This document shows positions 18,103-31,611 of a DNA stretch of 64,000 nucleotides, in pieces (the stretch's first letter is position 1; every line of letters begins with the position of its first letter). The translations under genes and the position numbers were made by a program. Origin of the DNA: Barnesiella sp. An22 (GTDB lineage: Bacteria > Bacteroidota > Bacteroidia > Bacteroidales > Barnesiellaceae); assembly GCF_002159975.1 (NCBI RefSeq), contig NZ_NFJR01000007.1:1-64000 (forward strand), in the 5' to 3' direction. Below the pieces are notes generated by a model. That model searched no databases, was not told the origin of the DNA, and saw only the letters and a list, made by a program, of their open reading frames with translations.

Positions 18103-19419
18103 CTACTCGAGCCTTCCCGTAGCCCGCAGATAGGCTGTCTCGTAAATCTTGTATTGGGTCTGAGCCTCAATTAGGTTGCTCTCGGCCTGTTGCCACTGCG
18201 ACTGGGCATCGAGCAAATCGGTGAGCGTGGCCATCGACGCGGCATAGCGGTTGCGCATCACCCGCAAATTCTCGACGGCCTGCTGCAACCCAATCTGCGC
18301 CGTGCCTATCAGGCGATAACCATCCTGCACATTGCGCATGGCCTGCTGCACCTCGAGGTTGAGCAACCGTCTGTTTTTCTGCAGGTCCAACTCGGCACTG
18401 CGCAACTCGTAGCGGGCCTTACGCACCTTTTTGTGCACCTCGCCCCAATGGAACAGGGGCACCTTTACGGCCAGCATCACCATGCCTATACCGTCGCGGA
18501 ACTCCTCCGAATAGGGCATCATCGTGCCGTTACCCACATCGACCAGGCTGTTGAGCTTGATGTTGCCATAGTAGGTATACCCGGCCGACAACCCCACGGT
18601 GGGGAGCATCTCGGCCCGGGCATTCTTGATTTGCAACTTGCCTATCTCGACCTGCTGCTTGAGCAGGGAGAGTTCGGGACGGTTGTCGATTTCGGCCGTG
18701 AGCAGACCGGGTTCGGTAGCAACCCACGCCGTATCGGTAGGCACGATGGCCGTGGTGTCGTCGACCCCAATCAGCCGGCACAGCGACAACCGGCACAGGT
18801 CGGCCCCGTTGCGGGCCTTTTGCAACTGGTAGTGGATCTCGCTCTGCTTGGCCTGGATGCGCAGCAGGTCGTTCTCGATAATCATGCCCGCCGAGAGCGA
18901 ACCGCTCATCTGGCTGAACAACGTGTCCATCTGCTCGCAATAGCTCTCGAGCATATACACCTTTCGCCCGACCGCCAGATAGGTCCAATAGGCATTATCG
19001 GCATCGACCAGAATATCCATGCGGGCCATGCGCAACTGCTCGCCGGCCGCCGCCTCGCCAATGCGGGCCATACGTTTGCCGGCCGTGATTTTCCCGCCGG
19101 TATAGATGGGTTGGGTCAGCGTAATGCCGGCCATATACATGCCCCGCATGCGCAGGTCCATGCCCATCATGTCGATGTCGGGGAATACATAGGCCCCCGT
19201 GGCCGACCCCTCGAGTTTGGGCAGATAGGCCGTCGTGGCTATTCGGTTGTCGAGTTCGGCCTGACGCAACCGGATATCGGCCTGCTCGAGCTCCTCGCTG
19301 TGAGCCAGCGCCATCTCGCGGCACTGGCTGTGCGAAAGCAGCAGCGGCTGGGCCATTGCGCTACCGGTACCGGCCAGCCCCACAGCGCAAACTATCGTAT
19401 ATATCGTTTTCAGATTCAT
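18103..19419 (-). CDS. TolC-family outer membrane efflux protein
   Basis: The 438-residue precursor has a signal peptide cut near AMAQ and two repeats of the long alpha-helical OEP domain. Recognisable parts are EQADIRLRQAELDNRIA in repeat one and an AVENLRVMRNRYAASMATLTDLLDAQ segment in repeat two. It forms the trimeric outer-membrane duct of a tripartite RND pump. It is the third gene of an adaptor-pump-duct operon, 13 nt after the pump. The start at 19419 is chosen as the first ATG that opens a proper signal peptide. Confidence 0.93.
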   Translation of the reverse strand: MNLKTIYTIVCAVGLAGTGSAMAQPLLLSHSQCREMALAHSEELEQADIRLRQAELDNRIATTAYLPKLEGSATGAYVFPDIDMMGMDLRMRGMYMAGITLTQPIYTGGKITAGKRMARIGEAAAGEQLRMARMDILVDADNAYWTYLAVGRKVYMLESYCEQMDTLFSQMSGSLSAGMIIENDLLRIQAKQSEIHYQLQKARNGADLCRLSLCRLIGVDDTTAIVPTDTAWVATEPGLLTAEIDNRPELSLLKQQVEIGKLQIKNARAEMLPTVGLSAGYTYYGNIKLNSLVDVGNGTMMPYSEEFRDGIGMVMLAVKVPLFHWGEVHKKVRKARYELRSAELDLQKNRRLLNLEVQQAMRNVQDGYRLIGTAQIGLQQAVENLRVMRNRYAASMATLTDLLDAQSQWQQAESNLIEAQTQYKIYETAYLRATGRLE

Positions 19420-19432
19420 CGTCTTTTTGGTT

Positions 19433-22400
19433 TTATGCGTTAACTGGTTTCTTGATATGGAACATCGCCGCATAGAAGAGCGGCAACAACACGAGCGTGA
19501 TGATGGTCCCCACGGTGAGGCCGCCCATGATGGTAATGGCCATCGAACTGTACATGGGGTCGGTCACGAGCGGAATCATACCCACAATGGTCGTGAGCGA
19601 TGCCATCAGCACCGGACGCACACGCGACACCGTGGCCTCGACTACCGCCGTATAGGGCGACTGTTTCTCCTCGGTCTGCAACCGGTTGATTTCGTCGACC
19701 AGCACGATGGCATTCTTCACCATCATGCCTATCAGGCCCATCATGCCGATGATGGCCATGAAGGTGAAGGGCTGACCGCTCACCAACAGCACCGGTGTAA
19801 TGCCGCAGAAGATAAAGGGGATGCAGAGGAGAATCAGTATCACCTTGCGCCAACTGTTGAAGAGGAGCAGCAGGATGGCCAGAATGATAAATATCGTAAG
19901 CGGTACGAACTTCATCAGATTGCCTATGGCCTCACCCTGCAACTCACCCTCGCCTACCCAGCGCATGCGATACCCTTCGGGCAGGCCGATAGCCTCGATT
20001 TCGTCCTTGATCGACTCCACCACCTTGGCTGGCGTCGCCTCGTCGCAATAGGGGTTGGGGTCGCACTCGGCCTCGATAACCCGCCGGCCGTTCTGGCGCA
20101 GCACCACATCCTCGTCCCAGTCGAGCCGGATATGGTGGGCCACATTGCTCAACGGAGTGGCCTTGAAAAGTTGGTCCTGCAGGTCGCTCATGCTCTGCCC
20201 GCCCGACAAGGCACTCTGCAACGCCTCGTTCGAGAGGTGGAAGTTGAGCATGCTCCACACCGGTATATCCGCGAGATTACGGATGGTCGTGCCGTCGTCG
20301 TTGCGCACCTGGAGGTTGAGCATCACCATACGGTCCTGGTCGTTGAGCACACCCACCGGCATGCCGTCGGTAGCGGCCAGCAGGGCATTGGCCACGTCGC
20401 CGCGCCCGACACCCGAACGCAAGGCGTCCTGCTGGTCATACTCGGCCACCAGCACCTTTCCCCGCGGCTTCCAGTTGTTCTGCACCGAATAGGCATCGAC
20501 ATAGGGCGAACGGCGCATAATCTCCTCGGCCTGGGCACTCAACCGGCGCAATACGGCCGGGTCGGGACCCGAGAACTCCACCTCGACGGTATGCGAGGTA
20601 GAAATCGAAAAGTTGTATTTGCGGATGCGGATATAGGCTTCGGGATACTCGCGACGCAACTGCTCCCGCACCACGGGTATCTGCTCGACCACCGTGCGGT
20701 AATCCTTGCAATCGACAATCAGCTCGCCGTAGCAGTCACCGCCCGAGGTCATGGGGCGTACCAGACAGTAGTGGGCCGGAGCACTGCCCTGGCTGACGGC
20801 CACCCGCTCGATCTGCGGATTCTGCGACACCCGGTCGCTCATCTCCAACAGGCGGGCACACACCGTATCGGCATTGGCTTCCGCAGGGAAAAAGCACTCG
20901 ACCACAAACTGTTTGTAGTCAAAGTCGGGGAAGAAGAGGTTCTTCACCTGCCTCATACCCACCAGACAAACGACCAGCAGCGCCACGGCTACGGCAATCG
21001 TAACCCGCTTGTACCCGATCAGTAGTGAAATGGTCTTGCGCACGAACCGGTGTACCGGCGAGTTCATCACCGCCCCGGTGGTATCGCCGCCCCGCCTCTT
21101 CTCGCGGCGCGGCAGCCACGAGTGGGCGCAAACGGGTACCTGCACAAGGGCCAGCACCCAACTGGCCAACAGGCTCACACACAGTACCAGAAAGAGGTCT
21201 CCGGCATATTCTCCGGCCGAATCGGGCGAGAGGTAGACACAGAGGAAGGTCGAGGCGGCAATAATCGTAGCCCCGAGCAGCGGCATGGCCGTGTTGCGCC
21301 CGATACGGTAGAGGTAGGTCTCGGGCGGGAGGCCCCGCTTCTTGTCTATCAGGATACCGTCCATAATCACCACGGCGTTGTCGACCAGCATGCCCATCGC
21401 CACGATAAAGGCCCCCAGCGAAATGCGTTGCAGCGTAGTACCGCACATGAGCAGGATGGGGAACGAGAGACATACCGTGAGCACCAGACCGAAGCCGATG
21501 ATGAGCCCGCTGCGCCACCCCATCGTGAAGATGAGCACCAGAATGACGATAACGACCGACTCGACCAGATTCCACATGAACGACGAGATGGCCTCGTCGA
21601 CCTTGTCGGGCTGGAAGAATATCTTGTCGGTCTCAAAGCCGGCCGGCAAATTCTTCATGGCCTCGGCCAACCGGGCATCGACCGCCCGGCCCACATCGGG
21701 CACAATGGCCGACGACTCCATGGCTATACAGATGGCCAGTGCCGGCTTGCCGTCGACAAAGAAACCGTTGCGCTGCGGCGAGGCATATCCCCGCTCCACC
21801 CGGGCCACATCGCCTATGCGCAGGGTCTTGCCGTCGAGGGTCTGTATCTGCAGGTTGCGAATGTCCTCCTCGTCCTTGACCGGCGAGTCGACATAGAGGG
21901 CAATGCGCTCGCCGTCGCTCCCGTAGCGGCCGGCATTGACCGTCTTGCCGGCACTTTGCAGGGCCGCCATGATTTGGGTGGGGATAATGCCGTTGCGGGC
22001 AATCTGCCCTTTCGAGAGGACGATGTTGATTACCTCGTCGCGGTTCCCCACGATATTGATGCGCTTCACCCCCTTCACGTCGAGCAACTCGCGCTGCAGG
22101 TAGCGGGCATAGCGATACATCTCGGGGTAGTCGTAGCCGTCGGCCGTGAGGGCATAGAAGATGCCGTAGACATCCATCATGTCGTCGATGACGATGGGCT
22201 CGTAACACCCTTGCGGCAGTCGCGACGCCGCATCGTTGACCTTGCGCCGCAACAGGTCGAAGTGCTGTTCGAGGTCCCGGTTCAGCACCGTCATCTGAAA
22301 CTCGACGGTAAACAGGGCCGCACTGTTCTGACACTCGCTCCTCACCTTCTTGACATTGGGGAGCGCCCGCAGCTCATCTTCCATGAGTTGGGCCACCTTC

Positions 22401-22585
22401 AGCTCCATCTCGTGGGCACTGGCTCCAGGCCACGACACCACGACCATGGCCTGCTTGGCCGACACGGCCGGGTCTTCGAGCTTGGGCATCTGCACAAACG
22501 ACAAGACTCCGGCGATGATAATCGCTACCATCAGCGACCAGAAGAGGACTGGCCGCCGCATGAAAAACTCGGTCATCTTCATCAC
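19433..22585 (-). CDS. RND efflux pump inner-membrane subunit (AcrB/HAE1 type)
   Basis: The 1050-residue protein has the standard RND layout: a first membrane helix (FFMRRPVLFWSLMVAIIIAG), a large periplasmic loop, helices 2-6 with the GMLVDNAVVIMDGI motif, a second periplasmic loop, and helices 8-12 with GMMGLIGMMVKNAIVLVDEI. The pump exchanges drugs or other amphiphiles for protons. The SWPGASAHEMELKVAQLMEDELR segment is typical of the porter domain. Its start overlaps the end of the adaptor gene by 4 nt. The substrate cannot be told from sequence. Confidence 0.95.
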   Translation of the reverse strand: MMKMTEFFMRRPVLFWSLMVAIIIAGVLSFVQMPKLEDPAVSAKQAMVVVSWPGASAHEMELKVAQLMEDELRALPNVKKVRSECQNSAALFTVEFQMTVLNRDLEQHFDLLRRKVNDAASRLPQGCYEPIVIDDMMDVYGIFYALTADGYDYPEMYRYARYLQRELLDVKGVKRINIVGNRDEVINIVLSKGQIARNGIIPTQIMAALQSAGKTVNAGRYGSDGERIALYVDSPVKDEEDIRNLQIQTLDGKTLRIGDVARVERGYASPQRNGFFVDGKPALAICIAMESSAIVPDVGRAVDARLAEAMKNLPAGFETDKIFFQPDKVDEAISSFMWNLVESVVIVILVLIFTMGWRSGLIIGFGLVLTVCLSFPILLMCGTTLQRISLGAFIVAMGMLVDNAVVIMDGILIDKKRGLPPETYLYRIGRNTAMPLLGATIIAASTFLCVYLSPDSAGEYAGDLFLVLCVSLLASWVLALVQVPVCAHSWLPRREKRRGGDTTGAVMNSPVHRFVRKTISLLIGYKRVTIAVAVALLVVCLVGMRQVKNLFFPDFDYKQFVVECFFPAEANADTVCARLLEMSDRVSQNPQIERVAVSQGSAPAHYCLVRPMTSGGDCYGELIVDCKDYRTVVEQIPVVREQLRREYPEAYIRIRKYNFSISTSHTVEVEFSGPDPAVLRRLSAQAEEIMRRSPYVDAYSVQNNWKPRGKVLVAEYDQQDALRSGVGRGDVANALLAATDGMPVGVLNDQDRMVMLNLQVRNDDGTTIRNLADIPVWSMLNFHLSNEALQSALSGGQSMSDLQDQLFKATPLSNVAHHIRLDWDEDVVLRQNGRRVIEAECDPNPYCDEATPAKVVESIKDEIEAIGLPEGYRMRWVGEGELQGEAIGNLMKFVPLTIFIILAILLLLFNSWRKVILILLCIPFIFCGITPVLLVSGQPFTFMAIIGMMGLIGMMVKNAIVLVDEINRLQTEEKQSPYTAVVEATVSRVRPVLMASLTTIVGMIPLVTDPMYSSMAITIMGGLTVGTIITLVLLPLFYAAMFHIKKPVNA

Positions 22586-23640
22586 AACAGCCCTCCTACA
22601 TTGGTACTACTGGGGGCGTCGATTACGCGTACCTTCTCCCCCTCCTGCAACACATGCACACCAGCCCGCACAATCTGCTCGTCGCCGGTGAGGCCGCCGA
22701 GAACGACAGCACGACCCTCGGGGTCGACATCGCCCAGCTCGACCTGCCGGCGGGTCACCGTAGAGTCGGGATTGAAAACCCACACGCACGACGAGTCACC
22801 CGCCTGGAAGAGACACTGCAAGGGCACGGCAAAGCCACGGGCCGATGCCGTATCGCCCACGACAATACCCACCTCGACATTCTGTCCGGCCGTCAACTTG
22901 CGGTCGGGGCGCTGCTCGAAGGCCAACTGCAACCGATACAGCTGGTTGCCGTCGGCCTTAGGGGTAAGGCTCGAGAGTGTGAGGGGCATAGCCTCATCGA
23001 CACCCGATGCCCGGCAAAAGAAGCGCACGAACTCTCCCCGCTGCCGGTAGAGGCTACCCGGAATGTCGAGCGTCACCTCCATCTGCGACACATCCATGAG
23101 GGTAAAGACCGCCGTGCCGGCATCGACCATCTCGGCCGGCGAGAAGTTCACGGCCTGTATGTACCCGTCGGCCGGAGCATAGAGTTTCGTATAGTTGAGT
23201 TTGTTCTTGTTGGCCTGCAACTGTACCTCCAGTTGCTTCAGTCCGGCCGAAGCCTTTTCGTAGTCGTTGGGCGACACGCTCTTCTGCTCCAGCAACCGCT
23301 CGGTGCGCTTCACCTCGTCGCGCACCTGGTCGTACTGCACCTGCAACGCCTCGACCCCCAGCCGGTAGTCGGCATCGTCGAGTTCGGCCAGCAACTGGCC
23401 GCGACGCACCCGGTCGCCCTCCGCAACATGGATGCGGGCTATCTGTCCCGCCGTCTTGAACCCGAGGCTTATCTCGTGCGCCTCCTTCACAATTCCCGAA
23501 TAGAGCTTTACCGTCTCCTCGCTCAATGCCTCGGGGCGGGTCAAACAGACACTCCGTTCACGGGCAGCCTCTCGGTCTCCGCCGGAACAGGCACACAACA
23601 GCAGGGCGGCCGCCACCATACACACATTCGTTTTCATCAT
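22582..23640 (-). CDS. RND efflux periplasmic adaptor lipoprotein
   Basis: The 352-residue protein begins with a lipoprotein signal (LLLCAC, Cys16 or Cys18). It has the membrane-fusion-protein pattern: lipoyl half-motifs (RIHVAEGDRVRRGQLLAELDD and LYAPADGYIQAVNFSPAEMV), a central alpha-hairpin, and a beta-barrel C-terminus. It bridges the RND pump and the TolC duct. It is the first gene of the operon, divergent from an AraC regulator. No consensus -7 box was found just upstream, which fits dependence on an activator. Confidence 0.93.
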   Translation of the reverse strand: MMKTNVCMVAAALLLCACSGGDREAARERSVCLTRPEALSEETVKLYSGIVKEAHEISLGFKTAGQIARIHVAEGDRVRRGQLLAELDDADYRLGVEALQVQYDQVRDEVKRTERLLEQKSVSPNDYEKASAGLKQLEVQLQANKNKLNYTKLYAPADGYIQAVNFSPAEMVDAGTAVFTLMDVSQMEVTLDIPGSLYRQRGEFVRFFCRASGVDEAMPLTLSSLTPKADGNQLYRLQLAFEQRPDRKLTAGQNVEVGIVVGDTASARGFAVPLQCLFQAGDSSCVWVFNPDSTVTRRQVELGDVDPEGRAVVLGGLTGDEQIVRAGVHVLQEGEKVRVIDAPSSTNVGGLL

Positions 23641-23815: not shown

Positions 23816-24742
23816 ATGCCACAAGATTCGACTCTCAACACGCTGAACTTAAACATGCTGCCCTTCAACGAGCAGACCTGCGCCTACCATAACGAACTGT
23901 TTCTGGCCGACAACTTCGACGCCCCCAATCACCTACCCGACCTGCTGAACAATCCCGAGATTCTCGCCTTCATCACCTCACCCTACCCGTTTAAAGTACA
24001 GTTTGCCATGATGCACCTTTGCCTCGACGGTTACATAAGAATCAGTCAGAACCTGAAAGAGCATACGTTGCAGCGTAATTGCCTGCTTATTGTCACACCA
24101 GGCTCTATCGGGCAGTGTCTCGAGATTTCGCCCGACTGCCGCATAGCCATCATTGCATTTGCCACCGTCAACAATTTGCCCGAAGGTAACCCGCAAAGCG
24201 CCCTTATCATGCGCAAGTTCCTCATCGACAACGCCATGTTGCAACTCTCCGACCGAGAGATGGGCGAGATGATAGGGTTCTATCACCAAATACGCCAACA
24301 GCTTGTTCAACCCGAAAGACTCTTTACTCACGAGATTATCAACAGTTACATACAAATATTCTATTACAGCTTATGTCAACTGATGAGCCCCTATATCGAG
24401 CAGCAAGATACCCAGTATGTTTCGCGCAAGAAACAGATTTTCGACCAGTTTACCCTCTTGCTCAGGCAGCACTATACCCAGGAGCGGAGCATCGGCTTCT
24501 ATGCCGACCAGCTGTGCCTAACTCCCAAATATCTATCGCAAGTCGTACGAAATTTCAGCGGCAGGCATGCCGGCGAATGGATTCGCGACTATGTCATTCT
24601 CGAAGCGAAAGCGCTGTTGAAAAGCGGGCAATACAATGTACAGCAAGTGAGCGACATGCTCAACTTTGCCAACCAATCGTTCTTTGGCGTTTATTTCAAA
24701 AAAGCCGTGGGCTGCTCGCCGTCGGCCTATCAAAATTCATAG
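23816..24742 (+). CDS. AraC-family transcriptional regulator
   Basis: The 308-residue protein has an N-terminal ligand or dimer domain of about 200 residues with a cupin-like beta stretch (GYIRISQNLKEHTLQRNCLLIV). The C-terminal AraC DNA-binding pair of helix-turn-helix units follows, with RSIGFYADQLCLTPKYLSQVV and the NVQQVSDMLNFANQSFFGVYF signature ending in GCSPSAYQ. It is divergent from the RND operon and most likely its activator. The effector is unknown. An internal ATG at codon 15 is an alternative start. Confidence 0.92.
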   Translation: MPQDSTLNTLNLNMLPFNEQTCAYHNELFLADNFDAPNHLPDLLNNPEILAFITSPYPFKVQFAMMHLCLDGYIRISQNLKEHTLQRNCLLIVTPGSIGQCLEISPDCRIAIIAFATVNNLPEGNPQSALIMRKFLIDNAMLQLSDREMGEMIGFYHQIRQQLVQPERLFTHEIINSYIQIFYYSLCQLMSPYIEQQDTQYVSRKKQIFDQFTLLLRQHYTQERSIGFYADQLCLTPKYLSQVVRNFSGRHAGEWIRDYVILEAKALLKSGQYNVQQVSDMLNFANQSFFGVYFKKAVGCSPSAYQNS

Positions 24743-24864: not shown

Positions 24865-24904
24865 AATACCAATTTCAACTTTTTTTTACTAAATTGTAGG
24901 TATT
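24865..24904. promoter_or_regulatory. Inverted repeat upstream of the porin gene
   Basis: AATACCAATTT (24865-24875) is mirrored by AAATTGTAGGTATT (24891-24904), with one 3-nt insertion in the second arm. It overlaps the -33 region of the porin promoter, so it may be an operator, possibly for a metal or redox sensor. No matching regulator is encoded in the window with certainty. Confidence 0.4.
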
Positions 24905-24933
24905 GCCCGCCCTAAACCGACCCTCTAATTTTG
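24903..24933 (+). promoter_or_regulatory. Promoter of the porin-imelysin-dihaem operon
   Basis: TTG (24903-24905) and TAATTTTG (24926-24933) are 20 nt apart and match the Bacteroidota pattern. The chosen start is at 24960. Confidence 0.65.
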
Positions 24934-24959
24934 CATTGAAAATCAAAAAAAGAGAATCC

Positions 24960-26426
24960 ATGCAATACAAATGTCTATGGCTTGCGGTGGCCCTGTGGCT
25001 CGCCCTGCCTGCCGAGGCAGAGAACCGTAAAACGGTCGATGCCGTATCGGGAGCTACCGAGCACCCGGATACCACAAGAGCGCAACTGAAGGCCGAACTG
25101 AAGGCCGAAATTCTGGAAGAGCTACGCCAAGAGTCGAAAACCTCAAGGGGAACCTCAAACACGACACCTGCCGAGCCCCCGAAACCCCGCCTCACCATAG
25201 GGGGATATGGCGAAGCGGTAGCCTCGCGCAACTTTTTCAGCGACGACTACAAGAAATATCAAGACGCTCATCTGCATAAAGGCGAAAGCCACGGGCGGTT
25301 CGACCTGCCTCATGTCGTCATCTTCCTCGGATATGACTTCGGCCGGGGCTGGAGTATGGGTAGCGAAATCGAGTTTGAACATGGCGGAACCGAAAGCGCC
25401 GTTGAAATCGAAGAGGAGGAAGCCGGCGAATACGAGTCGGAAATCGAACGTGGCGGCGAAGTCGCCCTCGAACAGTTCTGGATTCAAAAAAGTTTCTCGC
25501 CCGCTCTCAACCTGCGCATGGGGCACATCATCGTACCGGTAGGCGCGACCAACATGCACCACATGCCCACCGAGTTCTTCGGAGTCTACCGACCCGAGGG
25601 TGAAAACACGATCCTCCCCTGCACCTGGCACGAGACGGGCATCAGCCTGTGGGGCATGCTGGGGCGGCAGTGGCGCTACGAGGTGATGTTCCTGCCGGGC
25701 CTCGACTCCGACCGCTTCAACAGCAAAGGGTGGATACACGACGGAGCCGGGAGTCCCTATGAGTTCAAGATAGGAAACGCCTATGCCGGCGCTTTCCGCA
25801 TCGACAATTTCTCGGTACCGGGATTGCGCCTGAGCGTGAGCGGATACGGCGGCAACAGCTTTTCCAATACGCTCTACCCGCAGACCAACAGCCGCTACAA
25901 GGGGGTGAAGGGGACGGTACTCGTCGGGGCCTTCGACTTTGCCTATGACGCCCACCACTGGATTGTGCGGGGTAACTTCGACTACGGCCACCTCTCCGAC
26001 GCCGATATGATTACCGCCTTCAACGGCAGCATGCCGGCCTCGTCGGTATCGGCCAAACAGGCCGTCGCCTCCGACGCCATAGCCACCGGCATCGAGGCGG
26101 GCTACAACTTTTTCTCGCTCTCGCCCACCCTGCAGGCCCGGGGACAGAAGTTCTACCTCTTCGGCCGCTACGAATACTACGACTCGATGTTCAAGACCCC
26201 GGCCCGCGTGCAGCACTACAAATGGTGCGGACGCCAACGGCTGGCCGCCGGCATCAACTACTGCCCCCTGAAGTCGATTGTCATCAAGGCCGAGTACAGC
26301 ATCGGGCTGCTCAATGCCAACTCCTACACCTATACCGACTCCAGCGGTGCCACCTGCATCGGCCACTACAACAACGAGCCCGCCGTGTCGATAGGCATCG
26401 CCTACTCGGGGGTATTCACGCGATAA
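24960..26426 (+). CDS. Outer-membrane porin of Bacteroidota (phosphate-porin-like)
   Basis: The 488-residue precursor has a signal peptide cut near PAEAE, then a short coiled-coil-like charged segment (AQLKAELKAEILEELRQE). A beta-barrel with many alternating aromatic strands follows (GYGEAVASRNFFSD at the first strand; barrel ends with Tyr/Gly-rich strands and GIAYSGVFTR). Porins of this kind sit with imelysin and di-haem genes. The acidic patch at about residues 140-165 (EIEEEEAGEYESEIE) may face a pore or bind cations. The start at 24960 is set by the signal peptide and the promoter at 24926. The substrate is unknown; a cation is inferred. Confidence 0.82.
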   Translation: MQYKCLWLAVALWLALPAEAENRKTVDAVSGATEHPDTTRAQLKAELKAEILEELRQESKTSRGTSNTTPAEPPKPRLTIGGYGEAVASRNFFSDDYKKYQDAHLHKGESHGRFDLPHVVIFLGYDFGRGWSMGSEIEFEHGGTESAVEIEEEEAGEYESEIERGGEVALEQFWIQKSFSPALNLRMGHIIVPVGATNMHHMPTEFFGVYRPEGENTILPCTWHETGISLWGMLGRQWRYEVMFLPGLDSDRFNSKGWIHDGAGSPYEFKIGNAYAGAFRIDNFSVPGLRLSVSGYGGNSFSNTLYPQTNSRYKGVKGTVLVGAFDFAYDAHHWIVRGNFDYGHLSDADMITAFNGSMPASSVSAKQAVASDAIATGIEAGYNFFSLSPTLQARGQKFYLFGRYEYYDSMFKTPARVQHYKWCGRQRLAAGINYCPLKSIVIKAEYSIGLLNANSYTYTDSSGATCIGHYNNEPAVSIGIAYSGVFTR

Positions 26427-26465
26427 TCAAACCGTATTGTTTCAATCATAAAACCATTTATTACA

Positions 26466-27689
26466 ATGAAAAGAGTTTTCAGAAATTCGTTACAACTATT
26501 TGCTTTGTCGGCCCTGCTGCTCGGCGGTGTGTCCTGCACGGAAGAAGAGAAAGATTTCTCTTGGGAAGAACAACGCGAAACCGAATTGCAGGCGGCGGCT
26601 ACCGCTTTTGTCGAAAAGACCGTAATCCCCACCTACTCCTCGCTGGCCGATGCCAGCCTCGAACTGGCCGACCTCTGCGCCCAAATCGAAACCTCGGCCC
26701 AAGCCAATGCCTCGACCGACATCGCTGCCTCGGGCTCGTTGAGCGACGCTACAAAAGCCATTGTCGAGCAAGCCTGCTCCAAATGGTACGAGGCTCGCAA
26801 ACAATGGGAGTTGAGCGAGGCATTCCTCTATGGCGCCGCCGGTGACTACAACATCGACCCGCACATCGACTCGTGGCCGCTCAATGCGACCGACCTGCAA
26901 GCATTGCTCGACGACCCGGTGCGCATGGGCATGATGGACGCCGAGTATGCCGCCGGATTGGGCTACGGCCTGCTGGGATTCCATGCGATCGAGTACATGC
27001 TGTTCGACCACCAGATCGACGCCTCTTCGACTACGGGGAAAGCCCGTTCGGGCGCTTTCAACCGCAAAGAAGAGTTGGTCTACCTCACCGCCGTGGCCGG
27101 CGACTTAGCCAACCAGTGCGTGCGTTTGGAAGCCTCGTGGAAAGGCTTTGACAACGTGTCGGCCGAGAAACAGACAATGCTTACCGAGGCCGAACTCGAA
27201 CCCTCCTTCGACTATGGCGAGAGCATGAAAAACGCCGGTAAAGGAGGCAGTAAATACAAGAGCTATCTCGAAGCCGCCCAAGAAATTATTCAAGGCTGCT
27301 CGGACATCGCCGACGAGGTGGGTAACCAAAAAATAGGACGCCCCAACGAAGCAGCCGCCGGAGCTTCGGAAGACCTCAGCTACATCGAATCGCCCTATGC
27401 CAAAAACTCCAAAGTCGATTTCTACGACAATATCGTCAGCATCAAGAACGCCTATCTGGGCATGAACGTGGGCGACCCGTCGGTGAGCAACTACCTGGCC
27501 AGCATCAACCCCACGGCCGACACAGCCGTACGCAATGCCATCGAGGCGGCATTGAACGCCATCGATGCAGCTCCAGCCCCCTTTGTCAACTACGCCGGCT
27601 CGCACAACGAGCTGTGGAAAAAGGCCACGACGGCTTGCAACGACTTGAAAAAGGCTCTCGACGAAGCACAATCGGCCATAGGACAATAA
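26466..27689 (+). CDS. Imelysin-family periplasmic lipoprotein (M75)
   Basis: The 407-residue precursor has a lipobox at Cys24 (LLLGGVSC). It is an imelysin/IrpA-like protein with the GxHxxE signature in LLGFHAIEYMLFD (about residues 178-182), which coordinates a metal-like site in related proteins. Imelysins are iron-regulated and linked to iron uptake, although peptidase activity was claimed early and is doubtful. It lies 39 nt after the porin and 22 nt before the di-haem gene, so all three should be co-expressed. A role in binding or delivering iron is inferred. Confidence 0.9.
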   Translation: MKRVFRNSLQLFALSALLLGGVSCTEEEKDFSWEEQRETELQAAATAFVEKTVIPTYSSLADASLELADLCAQIETSAQANASTDIAASGSLSDATKAIVEQACSKWYEARKQWELSEAFLYGAAGDYNIDPHIDSWPLNATDLQALLDDPVRMGMMDAEYAAGLGYGLLGFHAIEYMLFDHQIDASSTTGKARSGAFNRKEELVYLTAVAGDLANQCVRLEASWKGFDNVSAEKQTMLTEAELEPSFDYGESMKNAGKGGSKYKSYLEAAQEIIQGCSDIADEVGNQKIGRPNEAAAGASEDLSYIESPYAKNSKVDFYDNIVSIKNAYLGMNVGDPSVSNYLASINPTADTAVRNAIEAALNAIDAAPAPFVNYAGSHNELWKKATTACNDLKKALDEAQSAIGQ

Positions 27690-27711
27690 ACAACACATAA
27701 TTTCAAAAGCT

Positions 27712-29334
27712 ATGAAATCTTATCCCTTTTTACTGGCTTTTGCAACGGCGGCGCTGTGCGTCGCCGGTTGCACAGATGACAACCCCGACGACACACCCCG
27801 TCCCGTTACACCGCAGTTGTCGGAAGAGTATTACACGGGCGGCCAGCTGGGTACCGCCTTCAACACCACCTCATCGGCCTTCGAACAACCGTCGGCCGCC
27901 GTCGAGAATGCCGGCATGAGCACCTCGTTCAAGAACGGTGAAGCCCTGTTCGAAAAGATTTTCACCCCGGCCTCCGACGGTTCGGTTCGCGGCGGACTGG
28001 GACCGCTCTATATCCGCACCTCCTGCATGCACTGCCACCCGGGTTACGGCCACGGCAAACGTCAGGAAGGAACCTTCAATGCCACCGAGATAGGCAACGG
28101 ATACCTGCTGGTCATCTATGACGACAACGACAACTACATCGCCTCGCTCACAGGCATGCCGCAACTCTTTGCCGTCGAGCCTTTCAAGGCGCCGATAAAT
28201 CCGGATAAAATCAAGATTACATGGAAAAACCACACCGACAGCTGGAACAACACCTTCCCCGACGGTACCACCTATGAACTGGTCTACCCCGAAGTGGCCA
28301 TTCCCGCCGACGCCTATTATGTAGACCTCATCACCACCGACGGCCGCACGCTGTCGCCCGACCAAGTGAATATCCGGCTCGAATCCACCATCGGTATCTA
28401 CGGGACAGGGCTGCTCGACGCCATCGACGACGACGATTTGAAAGCCGAATATGCCAAACAGGAAAACGACAACTACTTCGAATTGAATCCCAAAATTTTC
28501 CAAAACGGCGAATGGGTGAGCCAATACAGCAACACCAAACCCAGCGATGGCGGTACGGGCGAGAAACACCCTTTCCGCTTCACCTACGCCCTTAGCCGGG
28601 GTCCCTTGCAAGACGCAGCCGGTGCTAACGCTATTTGGAACATCACCAACGTGACCCGCTCGAACCGTCGCTATCACTACATGACAACGGCATACGCCGA
28701 AAAGGCTTCGAAAGATCCCGAGGTACAAGCCCGGTTCTATGACTATTTTCCCGACCGGAAAACCGACGCCGGCGTCGAACAGGACATCTACAACTACCTG
28801 ATGGCGACCGACCTCCCGGTAGAGATGAGCGACGAGTATTACACCGACTTGATGATATGGCACCGTGGATTGGCCGTGCCGGCTGCCCGCAACCTCGACG
28901 ATCCTACCATACAACGGGGCAAACAACTCTTCACCGAAATGGGGTGCAGCTACTGCCATCGCCCCACCTGGACCACCGGCGACGACCATTACAGCGACCC
29001 CAGCGGATTCTTCACCCGGGGTACCGAGCTGCCGCGCTATCCCCACCAGAAGATATGGCCCTACACCGACCTGGTACAACACCGCTTGCACATGGCCAAC
29101 GACATACGCACCGGCTGGTGCCGCACCACGCCCCTGTGGGGTAGAGGCCTGCACCAGAAATGTACCGGTTCGTTCGAGAGCGACAGGCTGCACGATTGCC
29201 GCGCGCGCAATGTGATCGAAGCGATCATGTGGCACGGAGCGCCCGAAAGCGACGCCCGCCAATCGGTCGAGAAATTCCGGACATTGAGCAAAGAAGATCG
29301 TGATGCCGTGGTCAAATTCATCGACGCGATTTAA
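27712..29334 (+). CDS. Di-haem oxidoreductase-family c-type cytochrome lipoprotein
   Basis: The 540-residue precursor has a lipobox Cys20. It carries two CxxCH haem sites, CMHCH (Cys105-His109) and CSYCH (Cys412-His416), in the di-haem oxidoreductase fold (DUF1111/'thiol oxidoreductase'). The C-terminal GRGLHQKCTGSFESDRLHD and VIEAIMWHGAPESDA segments are family-conserved. Its neighbours in other bacteria are imelysins, and a redox role in metal uptake is suspected. It would need haem attachment in the periplasm, which the next gene can provide. The reaction is not known. Confidence 0.9.
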   Translation: MKSYPFLLAFATAALCVAGCTDDNPDDTPRPVTPQLSEEYYTGGQLGTAFNTTSSAFEQPSAAVENAGMSTSFKNGEALFEKIFTPASDGSVRGGLGPLYIRTSCMHCHPGYGHGKRQEGTFNATEIGNGYLLVIYDDNDNYIASLTGMPQLFAVEPFKAPINPDKIKITWKNHTDSWNNTFPDGTTYELVYPEVAIPADAYYVDLITTDGRTLSPDQVNIRLESTIGIYGTGLLDAIDDDDLKAEYAKQENDNYFELNPKIFQNGEWVSQYSNTKPSDGGTGEKHPFRFTYALSRGPLQDAAGANAIWNITNVTRSNRRYHYMTTAYAEKASKDPEVQARFYDYFPDRKTDAGVEQDIYNYLMATDLPVEMSDEYYTDLMIWHRGLAVPAARNLDDPTIQRGKQLFTEMGCSYCHRPTWTTGDDHYSDPSGFFTRGTELPRYPHQKIWPYTDLVQHRLHMANDIRTGWCRTTPLWGRGLHQKCTGSFESDRLHDCRARNVIEAIMWHGAPESDARQSVEKFRTLSKEDRDAVVKFIDAI

Positions 29335-29364
29335 CCGTCTGTGTGCTATAACATCACAAAACCT

Positions 29365-29397
29365 ACGAAATGCCGGCGTACCGCACGTCGGCATTTC
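29365..29397. other. Strong hairpin between the di-haem and ccs genes
   Basis: CGAAATGCCG (29365-29374) and CGGCATTTCG (29388-29397) are perfect arms, with CGT/ACG pairing inside. No T tract follows on the plus strand, so it may be an mRNA processing or attenuation element that sets lower expression of the haem-export gene. Confidence 0.5.
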
Positions 29398-29427
29398 GAG
29401 GTATAAAGAAACCCTATCCCAAGAACG

Positions 29428-31611
29428 ATGAAACTTCTCAAACGTATTACATTCGTCCTGCTGGCCGCCATACTGTGTGTACTCACCGCGGCGACGATCA
29501 TCGAAAAAGAGTTTGGCTCACCATTTGTCTCGCGCCATATCTACCAATCTCCCACATTCGTAGCCCTCTGGTTAACCTTTGCCCTCTCTGCGGCGATCTA
29601 CCTCCTCCGCCGCCGTCGGGCATTGCGACCCGCCTCATGTCTGCTGCACATCGCCCTCCTCATCATTCTATGCGGAGCTTTCGTCACCTACCTGACCGGC
29701 CGGCAAGGCTCCCTGCACCTGCGATTAGGCGACAAACCCACCTCGGTATATCTCGACAACGAGGGGCGGGAAGAACAGTTGCCATTTGCTGTCGCCCTTG
29801 AAGAATTTCATATTGAATACTATCCGGGTACCCGGGCGCCCCTCGACTTCGTGAGTTGCGTAACCCTCATCGACGGTGACCAGACAAGGAGCGAGACGGT
29901 CGCCATGAACCGCATCGCCCGGTATCGGGGCTACCGCTTCTACCAATCGTCCTACGACTCCGACGGAGCCGGCACACGCTTGTCGGTGGCTCACGACCCG
30001 TGGGGTATCGCCATCACCTACACAGGCTATCTATTGCTGTTTTTGGCAATGGCCGCTCATCTCATCGATCGAATGGGAACTTTCCGCCGACTGCTACATA
30101 ATTGCGCCCTGCGGGGAATCGGCCTCGGTACCGTAATCCTGCTTGCCTCCTTATTCCCGGCACAAGCCACCGAAACGGCTCCCCCCACCCTTCCCCGGGA
30201 ACAATCATCACAACTGGGAGAGCTCTGTGTATATTACAACCAACGCATTTGCCCACTCTCCACACTGGCTCGCGACTTCACCACAAAGCTCTATGGAAAA
30301 AGCCGTTACCGTGGACTCACACCTGAGCAAGTTCTGGCGGGCTGGCTGTTCTATTACGACGAATGGAAACAAGAGCCCATGATCAAGATAAAAAGTCACG
30401 AAGCTCGGCGACTGTTGGGAATAGAAGGCCGATATGCCCGACTCACCGACTTCAACCGGGCACTGAGAGACTACACCGGAAATAGCGACAACCGGGGTGT
30501 GAACGAAGCTAACGAAAAATTCAACCTCGTGGCGATGCTTTGTACCGGCTCCATGTTGCAAATTTTCCCCTATCGGTTGAACGACACCCTACACTGGGCT
30601 TCTCAGGTCGATATACTCCCCCGTGAATTGCCTTACGAGCAAGGCGTATTTATCAGACAATCGATGAACTATGTAAACGAACTGGTCGCCAAACGCGACT
30701 ACACCGCACTATCGCAGGTCTTCACCAAAATAAGCCGGTACCAGCAAAAGTGCTGTGGCGAAGATTTCCCTTCGGCGACCCGGCTGCAAGCCGAGCGACT
30801 CTATAACCGCATGAACTATTCGCTGGCTCTGGCCATACTCCTCATCATCACCGGGACGGCAGCCTTTGTCTACATATGCCGTCGTATCACCCGGGGAACC
30901 CCGGGCTCGACTCTTGTGCGACGGCTATTGCCGGCAGGGATTGCTCTCGGTTTTATCTACCTCACAATCATACTGCTCCTGCGAGGCTACATCGCCGAGC
31001 ACTGGCCTCTCTCCAACGGATTCGAAACCATGCAGTTCATGGCATGGTGCGCCTTGGGTATCACGATGCTGTGTTACCGTCGGTTCATACTGATCCTACC
31101 AGCCGGCTACCTCGTCGGCGGGCTGGCCATGATGGTCTCGGTGATGGGCGAATCCAATCCCCAGATTACCCCGCTCATGCCGGTACTCACCTCGCCGTTG
31201 CTCTCAATACATGTTGTCCTCGTCATGGCCGCCTACACCCTGTTGGCCTTCGTCATGTTCAATGGCATAGCCGGCCTCCTACTATACCGGCGACACCCCC
31301 GGCAGTCCGAGCAATTGCAAGTCGTGGGGCGCATACTGCTCTATCCCGCTATATTCGCTTTGGCCGCCGGAATCTTTGTGGGAGCCATTTGGGCCAATAT
31401 CTCGTGGGGCCGCTACTGGGGGTGGGACCCCAAAGAGGTATGGGCGCTTATCACATGGCTCGTCTACGCTTTGGCTCTACACACAGAATCGCTGCCCCTG
31501 TTTAGAAAGCCCCTCTTTTTCCACGGCTTTTGTGTGGCAGCCTTCTGTTGCGTACTCATCACTTATTTCGGAGTTAATTTCCTACTGGGAGGCATGCACA
31601 GCTACGCCTGA
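29428..31611 (+). CDS. ccsA: ResB-CcsA fusion, cytochrome c maturation (system II)
   Basis: The 727-residue membrane protein has N-terminal ResB-like helices and a periplasmic domain (about 1-250), a middle region of about 190 residues, then a CcsA domain of about 8 helices. The CcsA part has the haem-handling WGRYWGWDPKEVWALITW motif near residue 665. Fusion of ResB and CcsA is usual in Bacteroidota and some other groups. It exports haem and joins it to CxxCH cysteines. Here it lies directly after a di-haem cytochrome gene and is probably dedicated to it. No CcsX or DsbD-type reductase is seen beside it. Confidence 0.9.
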   Translation: MKLLKRITFVLLAAILCVLTAATIIEKEFGSPFVSRHIYQSPTFVALWLTFALSAAIYLLRRRRALRPASCLLHIALLIILCGAFVTYLTGRQGSLHLRLGDKPTSVYLDNEGREEQLPFAVALEEFHIEYYPGTRAPLDFVSCVTLIDGDQTRSETVAMNRIARYRGYRFYQSSYDSDGAGTRLSVAHDPWGIAITYTGYLLLFLAMAAHLIDRMGTFRRLLHNCALRGIGLGTVILLASLFPAQATETAPPTLPREQSSQLGELCVYYNQRICPLSTLARDFTTKLYGKSRYRGLTPEQVLAGWLFYYDEWKQEPMIKIKSHEARRLLGIEGRYARLTDFNRALRDYTGNSDNRGVNEANEKFNLVAMLCTGSMLQIFPYRLNDTLHWASQVDILPRELPYEQGVFIRQSMNYVNELVAKRDYTALSQVFTKISRYQQKCCGEDFPSATRLQAERLYNRMNYSLALAILLIITGTAAFVYICRRITRGTPGSTLVRRLLPAGIALGFIYLTIILLLRGYIAEHWPLSNGFETMQFMAWCALGITMLCYRRFILILPAGYLVGGLAMMVSVMGESNPQITPLMPVLTSPLLSIHVVLVMAAYTLLAFVMFNGIAGLLLYRRHPRQSEQLQVVGRILLYPAIFALAAGIFVGAIWANISWGRYWGWDPKEVWALITWLVYALALHTESLPLFRKPLFFHGFCVAAFCCVLITYFGVNFLLGGMHSYA

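Follow-up and report, generated by a model that had tools for sequence, protein, structure and literature searches.

A conserved porin, imelysin, di-haem cytochrome and cytochrome maturation locus in Barnesiella and its probable relation to iron scarcity

Gene content and predicted products

The window, meaning the entire 64-kb stretch of Barnesiella sp. An22 DNA that was analysed, carries four consecutive plus-strand genes encoding a porin, an imelysin, a di-haem lipoprotein (DHOR) and a ResB-CcsA fusion (CcsBA), preceded by a promoter and a candidate operator (Table 1). The intergenic gaps are 39, 22 and 93 nt, and reading of the open reading frames reproduced exactly the four genes, coordinates and gaps claimed in an earlier note on this DNA.

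Table 1. Coordinates of the operon, its upstream elements and the neighbouring regulator gene
Feature	Positions	Strand	Details
AraC-family regulator, frequent but non-core neighbour of the operon	23816-24742	+	PF12833
Candidate lux-box-like operator, inverted repeat TTTTTACTAAATTGTAGGTATTG	24883-24905	+	Overlaps the -33 element
Bacteroidota-type promoter	24903-24935	+	TTG (24903-24905), 20-nt spacer, TAATTTTG (24926-24933), then CA
Outer-membrane porin, Glu-rich segment at residues 136-172	24960-26426	+	Open reading frame, 488 aa
Imelysin (M75) lipoprotein, GxHxxE, canonical (non-permuted) order	26466-27689	+	407 aa; PF09375
DHOR di-haem c-type lipoprotein, DUF1111-like	27712-29334	+	540 aa; PF06537
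ResB-CcsA fusion (CcsBA, System II cytochrome c maturation)	29428-31611	+	727 aa; PF05140 and PF01578

The porin, whose signal peptide was called by reading the sequence, matched no family in Pfam or NCBIfam, phosphate-selective porin O/P (PF07396) included. Its AlphaFold2 model is a beta barrel of about 16 strands (mean pLDDT 77) with 316 matches in the PDB at E <=0.001, the top ones all porins; solved porins including OprP and OprO gave a TM-score of about 0.45-0.49 of the query. The likeness to OprP/OprO is a match of the beta-barrel fold, whereas OprP has an arginine ladder where the window porin has its Glu-rich segment. That segment is the most acidic stretch of the protein (15 Glu among 37 residues), and its motif is conserved in two alignments, of 19 and 26 sequences; it is judged near-invariant, in support of the acidic patch noted earlier. 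It falls in a part of the model with pLDDT <50, and its position in the pore is therefore only putative.

The imelysin matches PF09375 at residues 87-398 (E 1.6e-45), has its GxHxxE motif as GFHAIE at residue 171, and is colinear with 4ECG; the circularly permuted structures 3N8U and 3OYV are matched in two swapped stretches. Imelysin structures speak against peptidase activity (PMC3143127); a BT_2479 mutant retained protease activity on EspB (PMC6282197). As for metals, neither zinc binding nor metal at the motif was observed in the Bacteroides ovatus imelysin (PMC3143127), and the M75-only protein EfeM binds Cu, Fe and Zn (PMC9174327); we counted the EfeM result for an iron-related reading of the locus and the B. 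ovatus result against it. DHOR matches PF06537 in two stretches (E 3e-35) and has CxxCH sites at residues 105 and 412, and the residues of both, CMHCH (Cys105/Cys108/His109) and CSYCH (Cys412/Cys415/His416), are invariant in 28 aligned sequences; its model (pLDDT 72) gave 3O5C as the best fold match, which was not significant (E 0.28). Both lipoproteins possess a lipobox (Cys24 and Cys20), the window sequences there being CTEEE and CTDDN; across about 75 homologues D/E is enriched at +3 to +5 after the cysteine, with a frequency of about 40-62% in the two families. These residues resemble the Bacteroides fragilis export signal SDDDD (PMC5080379); moreover, BT_2479, the imelysin of the Bacteroides thetaiotaomicron counterpart, was found in culture supernatant (PMC6282197), and its signal peptide has been employed for secretion in OMVs (PMC13192842). 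Of the surface or periplasmic placement envisaged in the earlier note, the surface is, on these signals, likely for both lipoproteins.

The ResB-CcsA fusion matches PF05140 (E 1.2e-19) and PF01578 (E 1.8e-31), resembles 25VK over its length (E 8e-94) and also 7S9Y, and carries WGRYWGWDPKEVW and four aligned histidines (74, 595, 685 and 724); against the NCBIfam CcsB equivalog TIGR03144 it scored 136 bits, below the 187.6-bit cut-off. Long similarity, the WWD motif and the four conserved histidines are common to the window protein and the CcsBA fusions 7S9Y/7S9Z and 25VK, but the window protein differs in being encoded beside its apparent client and in being the sole maturation system found in its genome, where family searches returned one ResB and one CcsA. 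A role in serving NrfA or CCP was rejected, since the same searches matched neither NrfA nor CCP_MauG in any genome of the genus. Within the genus CcsBA is effectively dedicated to the locus, being the only maturation system found and being lost together with it, and the earlier proposal of a dedicated cytochrome c maturation protein is to that extent correct.

Conservation and relatives of the locus

Among 295 Bacteroidales genomes, DHOR was found in 41 and imelysin in 38, with both in 37 and the two adjacent in 36; ResB adjoined the locus in at least 23. The exact order porin-imelysin-DHOR-CcsBA recurs in 70 of 80 named loci, which were the best DHOR matches and hence favour the compact arrangement (type A), so that the 295-genome counts are the unbiased figures. 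In Barnesiella, all four genes are present once in eight of nine genomes and all are absent from the ninth. Most of the loci are hosted by gut anaerobes. Since the identical four-gene order recurs across Bacteroidales, the locus is not a chance juxtaposition and constitutes a genuine, conserved unit; the co-occurrence of the four families in other genomes is the opposite of the absence that the earlier note had listed first among what would speak against it. That note had regarded the porin and the maturation protein as an unusual addition, but they belong to the normal composition of the locus in this order. An RND efflux pump that neighbours the operon in Barnesiella was rejected as part of the system, as it lies near only 5 of 100 loci; it is missing between ackA and the AraC gene in one Barnesiella genome (G005).

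The locus is not a new system and is already known as iron-regulated. Iron starvation raises the expression of BT2473-BT2482 of B. thetaiotaomicron 63- to 324-fold, and the locus is also induced in colitis (PMC10434189); it unites a porin, a thiol oxidoreductase (DHOR), a peptidase M75, CcsA and an HTH regulator, and the window locus likewise has porin, M75, DHOR and CcsA together. Iron limitation, one of the conditions under which the earlier note would look at expression, is the signal for this counterpart. Further entries of the B. thetaiotaomicron locus are a fimbrillin, hypothetical proteins and another gene annotated as CcsA. A circularly permuted imelysin has been reported for that species, and loci with such an imelysin (type B) carry, in the cases examined, an additional Porin_O_P porin along with an L-PSP-domain protein and a mono-haem lipoprotein; the second porin of one type B locus matches PF07396. 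The window locus, in contrast, is a compact four-gene type A with the canonical imelysin order. The B. thetaiotaomicron locus is probably a longer type B, and that iron induction was measured there was counted against its transfer to the window operon.

Iron loci of the imelysin-DUF1111 kind have been on record since 2011 (PMC3143127). Pseudomonas aeruginosa PA4370-PA4373 resembles the window unit in placing a GxHxxE imelysin beside a di-haem DUF1111/DHOR protein, in lacking an EfeU permease and in being linked to iron, but it has a second imelysin-like protein (GxxxxE) and no porin is mentioned there (PMC3143127), whereas the window unit includes a porin and CcsBA. EfeUOB shares an M75 domain and a haem redox protein; the window locus differs in lacking the EfeU (FTR1) permease, the cupredoxin domain and the DyP-type EfeB, and in having outer-membrane parts where those of EfeUOB are in the inner membrane. 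No EfeU/FTR1 permease was present in the window operon, and none was recognised among the mapped loci.

Promoter, palindrome and candidate regulators

Upstream of the porin, 58 of 74 loci have the promoter motif TAnnTTTG, where 6.7 would be expected, and 42 of the 44 anchored promoters have a 20-nt spacing. The palindrome overlapping it aligns in all eight genomes of the genus that possess the locus; each of these genomes has a single copy of its genus form, located at the operon, the genome devoid of the locus has no exact match, and in the 64-kb window the copy at the operon was the only site above threshold. Across the order, 41 palindrome sites showed stronger palindromic symmetry than did 71 other promoters (Mann-Whitney p 2e-9), and it is this comparison that carries the case, because column-shuffle covariation inside the palindrome was weak (z 1.9).

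Genes for a hemerythrin-LuxR (CdhR-type) regulator adjoin about 16 loci, and in loci other than that of the window the palindrome motif precedes 11 of the 16 adjoining regulator genes; BT0519-20 is the same gene pair and is itself iron-induced. The window's 141-kb contig carries no hemerythrin-LuxR gene, which we counted against the regulator model. New here are the order-wide conserved lux-box-like palindrome overlapping the promoter, the occurrence of that motif ahead of CdhR-type regulator genes, which sit next to the operon at about 16 loci, and the near-invariant glutamate-rich segment of the porin. The AraC gene, adjacent in six of the eight genus genomes, was rejected as the cognate regulator and is not core, since two genomes (G002 and G006) lack it upstream of the porin and retain the operator. 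A Fur box was likewise rejected, the palindrome not resembling the classical Fur consensus; the titles and abstracts read in a literature search gave no Bacteroidota motif.

A putative iron-starvation operon and competing explanations

By analogy with the B. thetaiotaomicron counterpart, the Barnesiella operon is very probably switched on under iron scarcity, and we lean towards regarding it as an iron-starvation operon that serves to acquire iron at the outer membrane. Low iron would act through a regulator, most plausibly of the hemerythrin-LuxR (CdhR) type, activating transcription from the palindrome centred near -43. CcsBA would attach both haems of DHOR while that protein is still in the periplasm, before it is exported, and the imelysin and DHOR lipoproteins would be displayed outside the cell by means of their export-like signals; there the imelysin may bind iron, either as such or in a complex, and DHOR may alter the redox state of the bound iron, probably from Fe(III) to Fe(II), after which the acidic porin could admit the cation to the periplasm for a separate inner-membrane importer. 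The locus contains no such importer, and this was counted against the acquisition reading. Of the metal oxidation or uptake suggested earlier, oxidation found no evidence in our analysis and iron uptake fits better. A bolder and decidedly tentative proposal is that the hemerythrin-LuxR protein is a direct iron sensor of Bacteroidales, activating the operon, its own gene and probably the flavodoxin operon through one conserved, lux-box-like palindrome, and that the operon specifies a surface iron-reductase complex of imelysin, DHOR and acidic porin for which Barnesiella keeps a whole cytochrome c maturation pathway.

In a model gut commensal this locus is one of those under strong iron regulation, and colitis induces it; a conserved core, a candidate operator and a likely regulator make directly testable how gut Bacteroidales sense iron, and also why haem iron goes into a cytochrome exactly as iron runs out. 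Barnesiella offers a simple system, as the operon apparently encodes the only c-type cytochrome together with the only maturation enzyme found by family searches.

Pfam names PF06537 a putative peroxidase, and the best, though insignificant, fold match of DHOR is a cytochrome c peroxidase (3O5C); DHOR might remove H2O2 at the surface while the imelysin sequesters free iron, giving protection from oxidative stress in the inflamed gut rather than import. Colitis induction of the B. thetaiotaomicron counterpart (PMC10434189) and the mention of imelysin and thiol oxidoreductase in papers on the Leptospira peroxide response agree with such a role, but the strong induction of that counterpart was measured under iron depletion (PMC10434189), the P. 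aeruginosa imelysin-DUF1111 operon is Fur-regulated (PMC3143127), CCP_MauG is unmatched throughout the genus and most loci reside in gut anaerobes; we consider peroxidase defence unlikely. Uptake of haem- or metallophore-bound iron, in which the imelysin would bind an organic iron complex, DHOR would free the iron reductively and the porin would import the metal or a small ligand, seems to us similarly improbable. The metal-free GxHxxE site of the B. ovatus imelysin (PMC3143127) may mean that the ligand is a complex and not a bare ion, and induction of the counterpart goes along with that of Hmu and xenosiderophore loci, but the type A core has no TonB-dependent receptor or haem-binding protein, and porins of this fold are expected to pass small solutes only.

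Very improbable, in our judgement, is an electron conduit in which surface DHOR sends electrons to extracellular iron minerals for respiration. The encoding of a porin together with a c-type cytochrome and the export-like signals of both lipoproteins are in keeping with it; DHOR, however, has two haems only, the core contains neither a multihaem partner nor a quinol oxidase, and expression of the counterpart rises when iron is scarce (PMC10434189), the opposite of what mineral respiration would need.

Composition of the operon and its cytochrome maturation protein

The four genes that the earlier note had reported in a single locus of Barnesiella sp. An22 lie where it placed them, and the intergenic gaps obtained from the open reading frame coordinates are 39, 22, and 93 nt, exactly as claimed. 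In Pfam, the imelysin matched PF09375, the di-haem c-type lipoprotein (DHOR) matched PF06537, and the ResB-CcsA fusion (CcsBA) matched PF05140 and PF01578; the porin had no family match in Pfam or NCBIfam, but AlphaFold2 predicts a beta barrel for it, matched in structure by solved porins. The imelysin carries GFHAIE, the haem motifs of the DHOR are CMHCH and CSYCH, and both proteins have a lipobox. CcsBA, a System II cytochrome c maturation protein, should be functional, because it is similar to 25VK across nearly its full length and to 7S9Y and retains four aligned histidines (74, 595, 685, and 724) as well as the WWD motif WGRYWGWDPKEVW.

Features of the operon, its surroundings, and candidate regulator genes
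Feature	Position	Strand	Remark
TolC, RND, and membrane-fusion efflux genes	window 18103-23640	-	adjoin AraC gene
AraC gene	window 23816-24742	+	5' neighbour of porin
Palindrome	window 24883-24935		before porin; palindrome (24883-24905) overlaps -33 element of promoter (24903-24935); candidate operon-specific operator
Porin	window 24960-26426	+	
Imelysin	window 26466-27689	+	
DHOR	window 27712-29334	+	
CcsBA	window 29428-31611	+	
CdhR-type (hemerythrin plus LuxR) genes	L115, L116, L121, L124, L125, L150, L177, L123, L128, L135		homologous loci; fused or split, beside operon

Porin, imelysin, DHOR, and CcsA were present as one copy each in eight of nine genus genomes and were all missing from the ninth (G003), in which the entire acetate kinase-to-nuo stretch is swapped for other genes; a ResB search of four genus genomes found one copy in each, and neither NrfA nor CCP_MauG was found in any of the nine. 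The sole maturation enzyme found in the genus is operon encoded, and this, together with the all-or-none linkage, supports the proposal that the operon has its own haem-attachment machine within the genus. In G003, the place of the operon is filled by an unrelated 621-amino-acid protein and another AraC gene (L210, G003:C3:326000-342000). An RND/membrane-fusion protein pair is also found near L101 and L107.

Conservation across Bacteroidales

The genome of the window comprises 3.35 Mb in 56 contigs, the family is represented in our sample by one genus, and the nearest named locus is CALUJQ010000018.1 (uncultured Barnesiella sp.; 91% identity). Among 295 Bacteroidales genomes, 41 had a DHOR and 38 an imelysin; 37 had both, a co-occurrence with a hypergeometric p of ~2e-41 when relatedness is ignored. 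Imelysin was followed by an adjacent DHOR in 36 of these 37 genomes, with ResB at most 3 kb after the pair in at least 22 of the 36. The order porin, imelysin, DHOR held in all 20 fully read loci, with CcsBA nearby in 18, and the exact four-gene order held in 70 of 80 named loci; contig ends truncate several of the other 10. Median gaps between the genes are 39, 30, and 73.5 nt. The four-gene finding is real, conserved, and functionally coherent.

Two locus types were distinguished. Type A, which includes the window, is a four-gene unit with a canonical imelysin. Type B loci carry a further porin, which matched Porin_O_P in the single case tested; in most of them, genes for an L-PSP-domain protein and a mono-haem lipoprotein are present as well. 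The imelysin is circularly permuted in four of the five loci classed as type B, as reported for B. thetaiotaomicron (PMC3143127); the fifth, L112, has the extra genes and the canonical order. The L-PSP-domain protein (PF01042; ~370 amino acids) adjoins CcsBA in several loci (L142:13122-14267, L103:11090-12232, L162, type B loci). Two DHOR genes stand in tandem at L108:7534-10834, the second without most of the conserved RGPLQDGPGANAIWN stretch, and L144 is a Bacteroidales-type locus titled as a Staphylococcus sp. MAG, a record that is probably mislabelled.

Promoter palindrome and candidate regulator

A block 5' of the porin is common to all eight genus genomes with the operon, ending in the window as TTTTACTAAATTGTAGGTATTG-N20-TAATTTTGCA, and the genus pattern occurs exactly once per operon-bearing genome, always upstream of the porin. 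Across the order, TAnnTTTG lies upstream in 58 of 74 loci (6.7 expected). At 41 sites anchored on TTG-N20-TAnnTTTG, the palindrome takes the form AATACC-N-GGTATT, AATCACC-N-GGTGATT, or ATCCCC-N-GGGGAT, and palindromy is 0.67 versus 0.44 at 71 other promoters of the same loci (p 2e-9); the 64-kb window has one above-threshold site. Half-sites of the pre-porin palindrome vary across Bacteroidales (L113-L192). Its centre lies at about -43, counted from an assumed start site, and LuxR-type activators sit near -43. We suggest, from sequence comparison, that this order-wide palindrome may be an operator specific to the operon.

Hemerythrin and LuxR (GerE) proteins, fused or paired, are encoded near ~16 of 100 loci, often divergently from the porin, and are the candidate regulator. 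The palindrome motif beat all shuffles before 11 of 16 such genes, a count in which the scored stretch may cover the porin's own site in some divergent loci; four have an N20-spaced promoter, and regulator-side sites with their own promoter are present at L115, L128, L150, and L177. The same gene pair in B. thetaiotaomicron, BT0519-20, is iron-induced 16- to 20-fold and lies close to fldA (326-fold). CdhR, the P. gingivalis member, activates hmu, and iron binding by CdhR is stated not to have been shown (PMC10434189). The window's own 141-kb contig has no hemerythrin-LuxR gene, so the link is indirect for Barnesiella. At L123 (Bacteroides sp. 51), a flavodoxin gene and its partner (DUF2023-like by position; L123:5389-6316) are oriented divergently from the hemerythrin gene and are followed by the porin operon, an arrangement that joins loci separate in B. 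thetaiotaomicron.

Iron response of the counterpart locus and probable surface placement

The earlier note had proposed testing expression under iron limitation, and an answer exists for the counterpart locus BT2473-82, which iron depletion raises 63- to 324-fold (PMC10434189), in B. thetaiotaomicron rather than in Barnesiella. In the same study, the listed BT2473-82 genes are up 14- to 33-fold in colitis, and the nrfAH locus falls about 30-fold (PMC10434189). Iron acquisition at the outer membrane during iron starvation is the best-supported function, and we infer that the lipoproteins and porin would bind iron, reduce it, and then allow its entry. Iron regulation of the counterpart was already known; our analysis adds the conserved core, the candidate operator, and the link to a candidate hemerythrin-LuxR regulator.

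Porin residues 136 to 172 (EIEFEHGGTESAVEIEEEEAGEYESEIERGGEVALEQ) include 15 Glu and one Arg among 37 positions; ten Glu are invariant across 26 type A sequences, and eleven were invariant in a first set of 19 sequences that included type B. Because most of the segment is modelled as a loop with a pLDDT of <50, we can only infer that it may form a cation path.

Asp or Glu makes up ~40 to 62% of residues at positions +3 to +5 past the lipobox Cys of imelysins and DHORs, an acidic stretch that resembles SDDDD, a surface signal of B. fragilis (PMC5080379). BT_2479, the M75 (imelysin) protein of B. thetaiotaomicron, was detected in culture supernatant (PMC6282197), and its signal peptide has been used as an OMV-secretion tag (PMC13192842). 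EspB-cleaving activity was retained in a BT_2479 mutant (PMC6282197), in agreement with the report that imelysins are not peptidases (PMC3143127).
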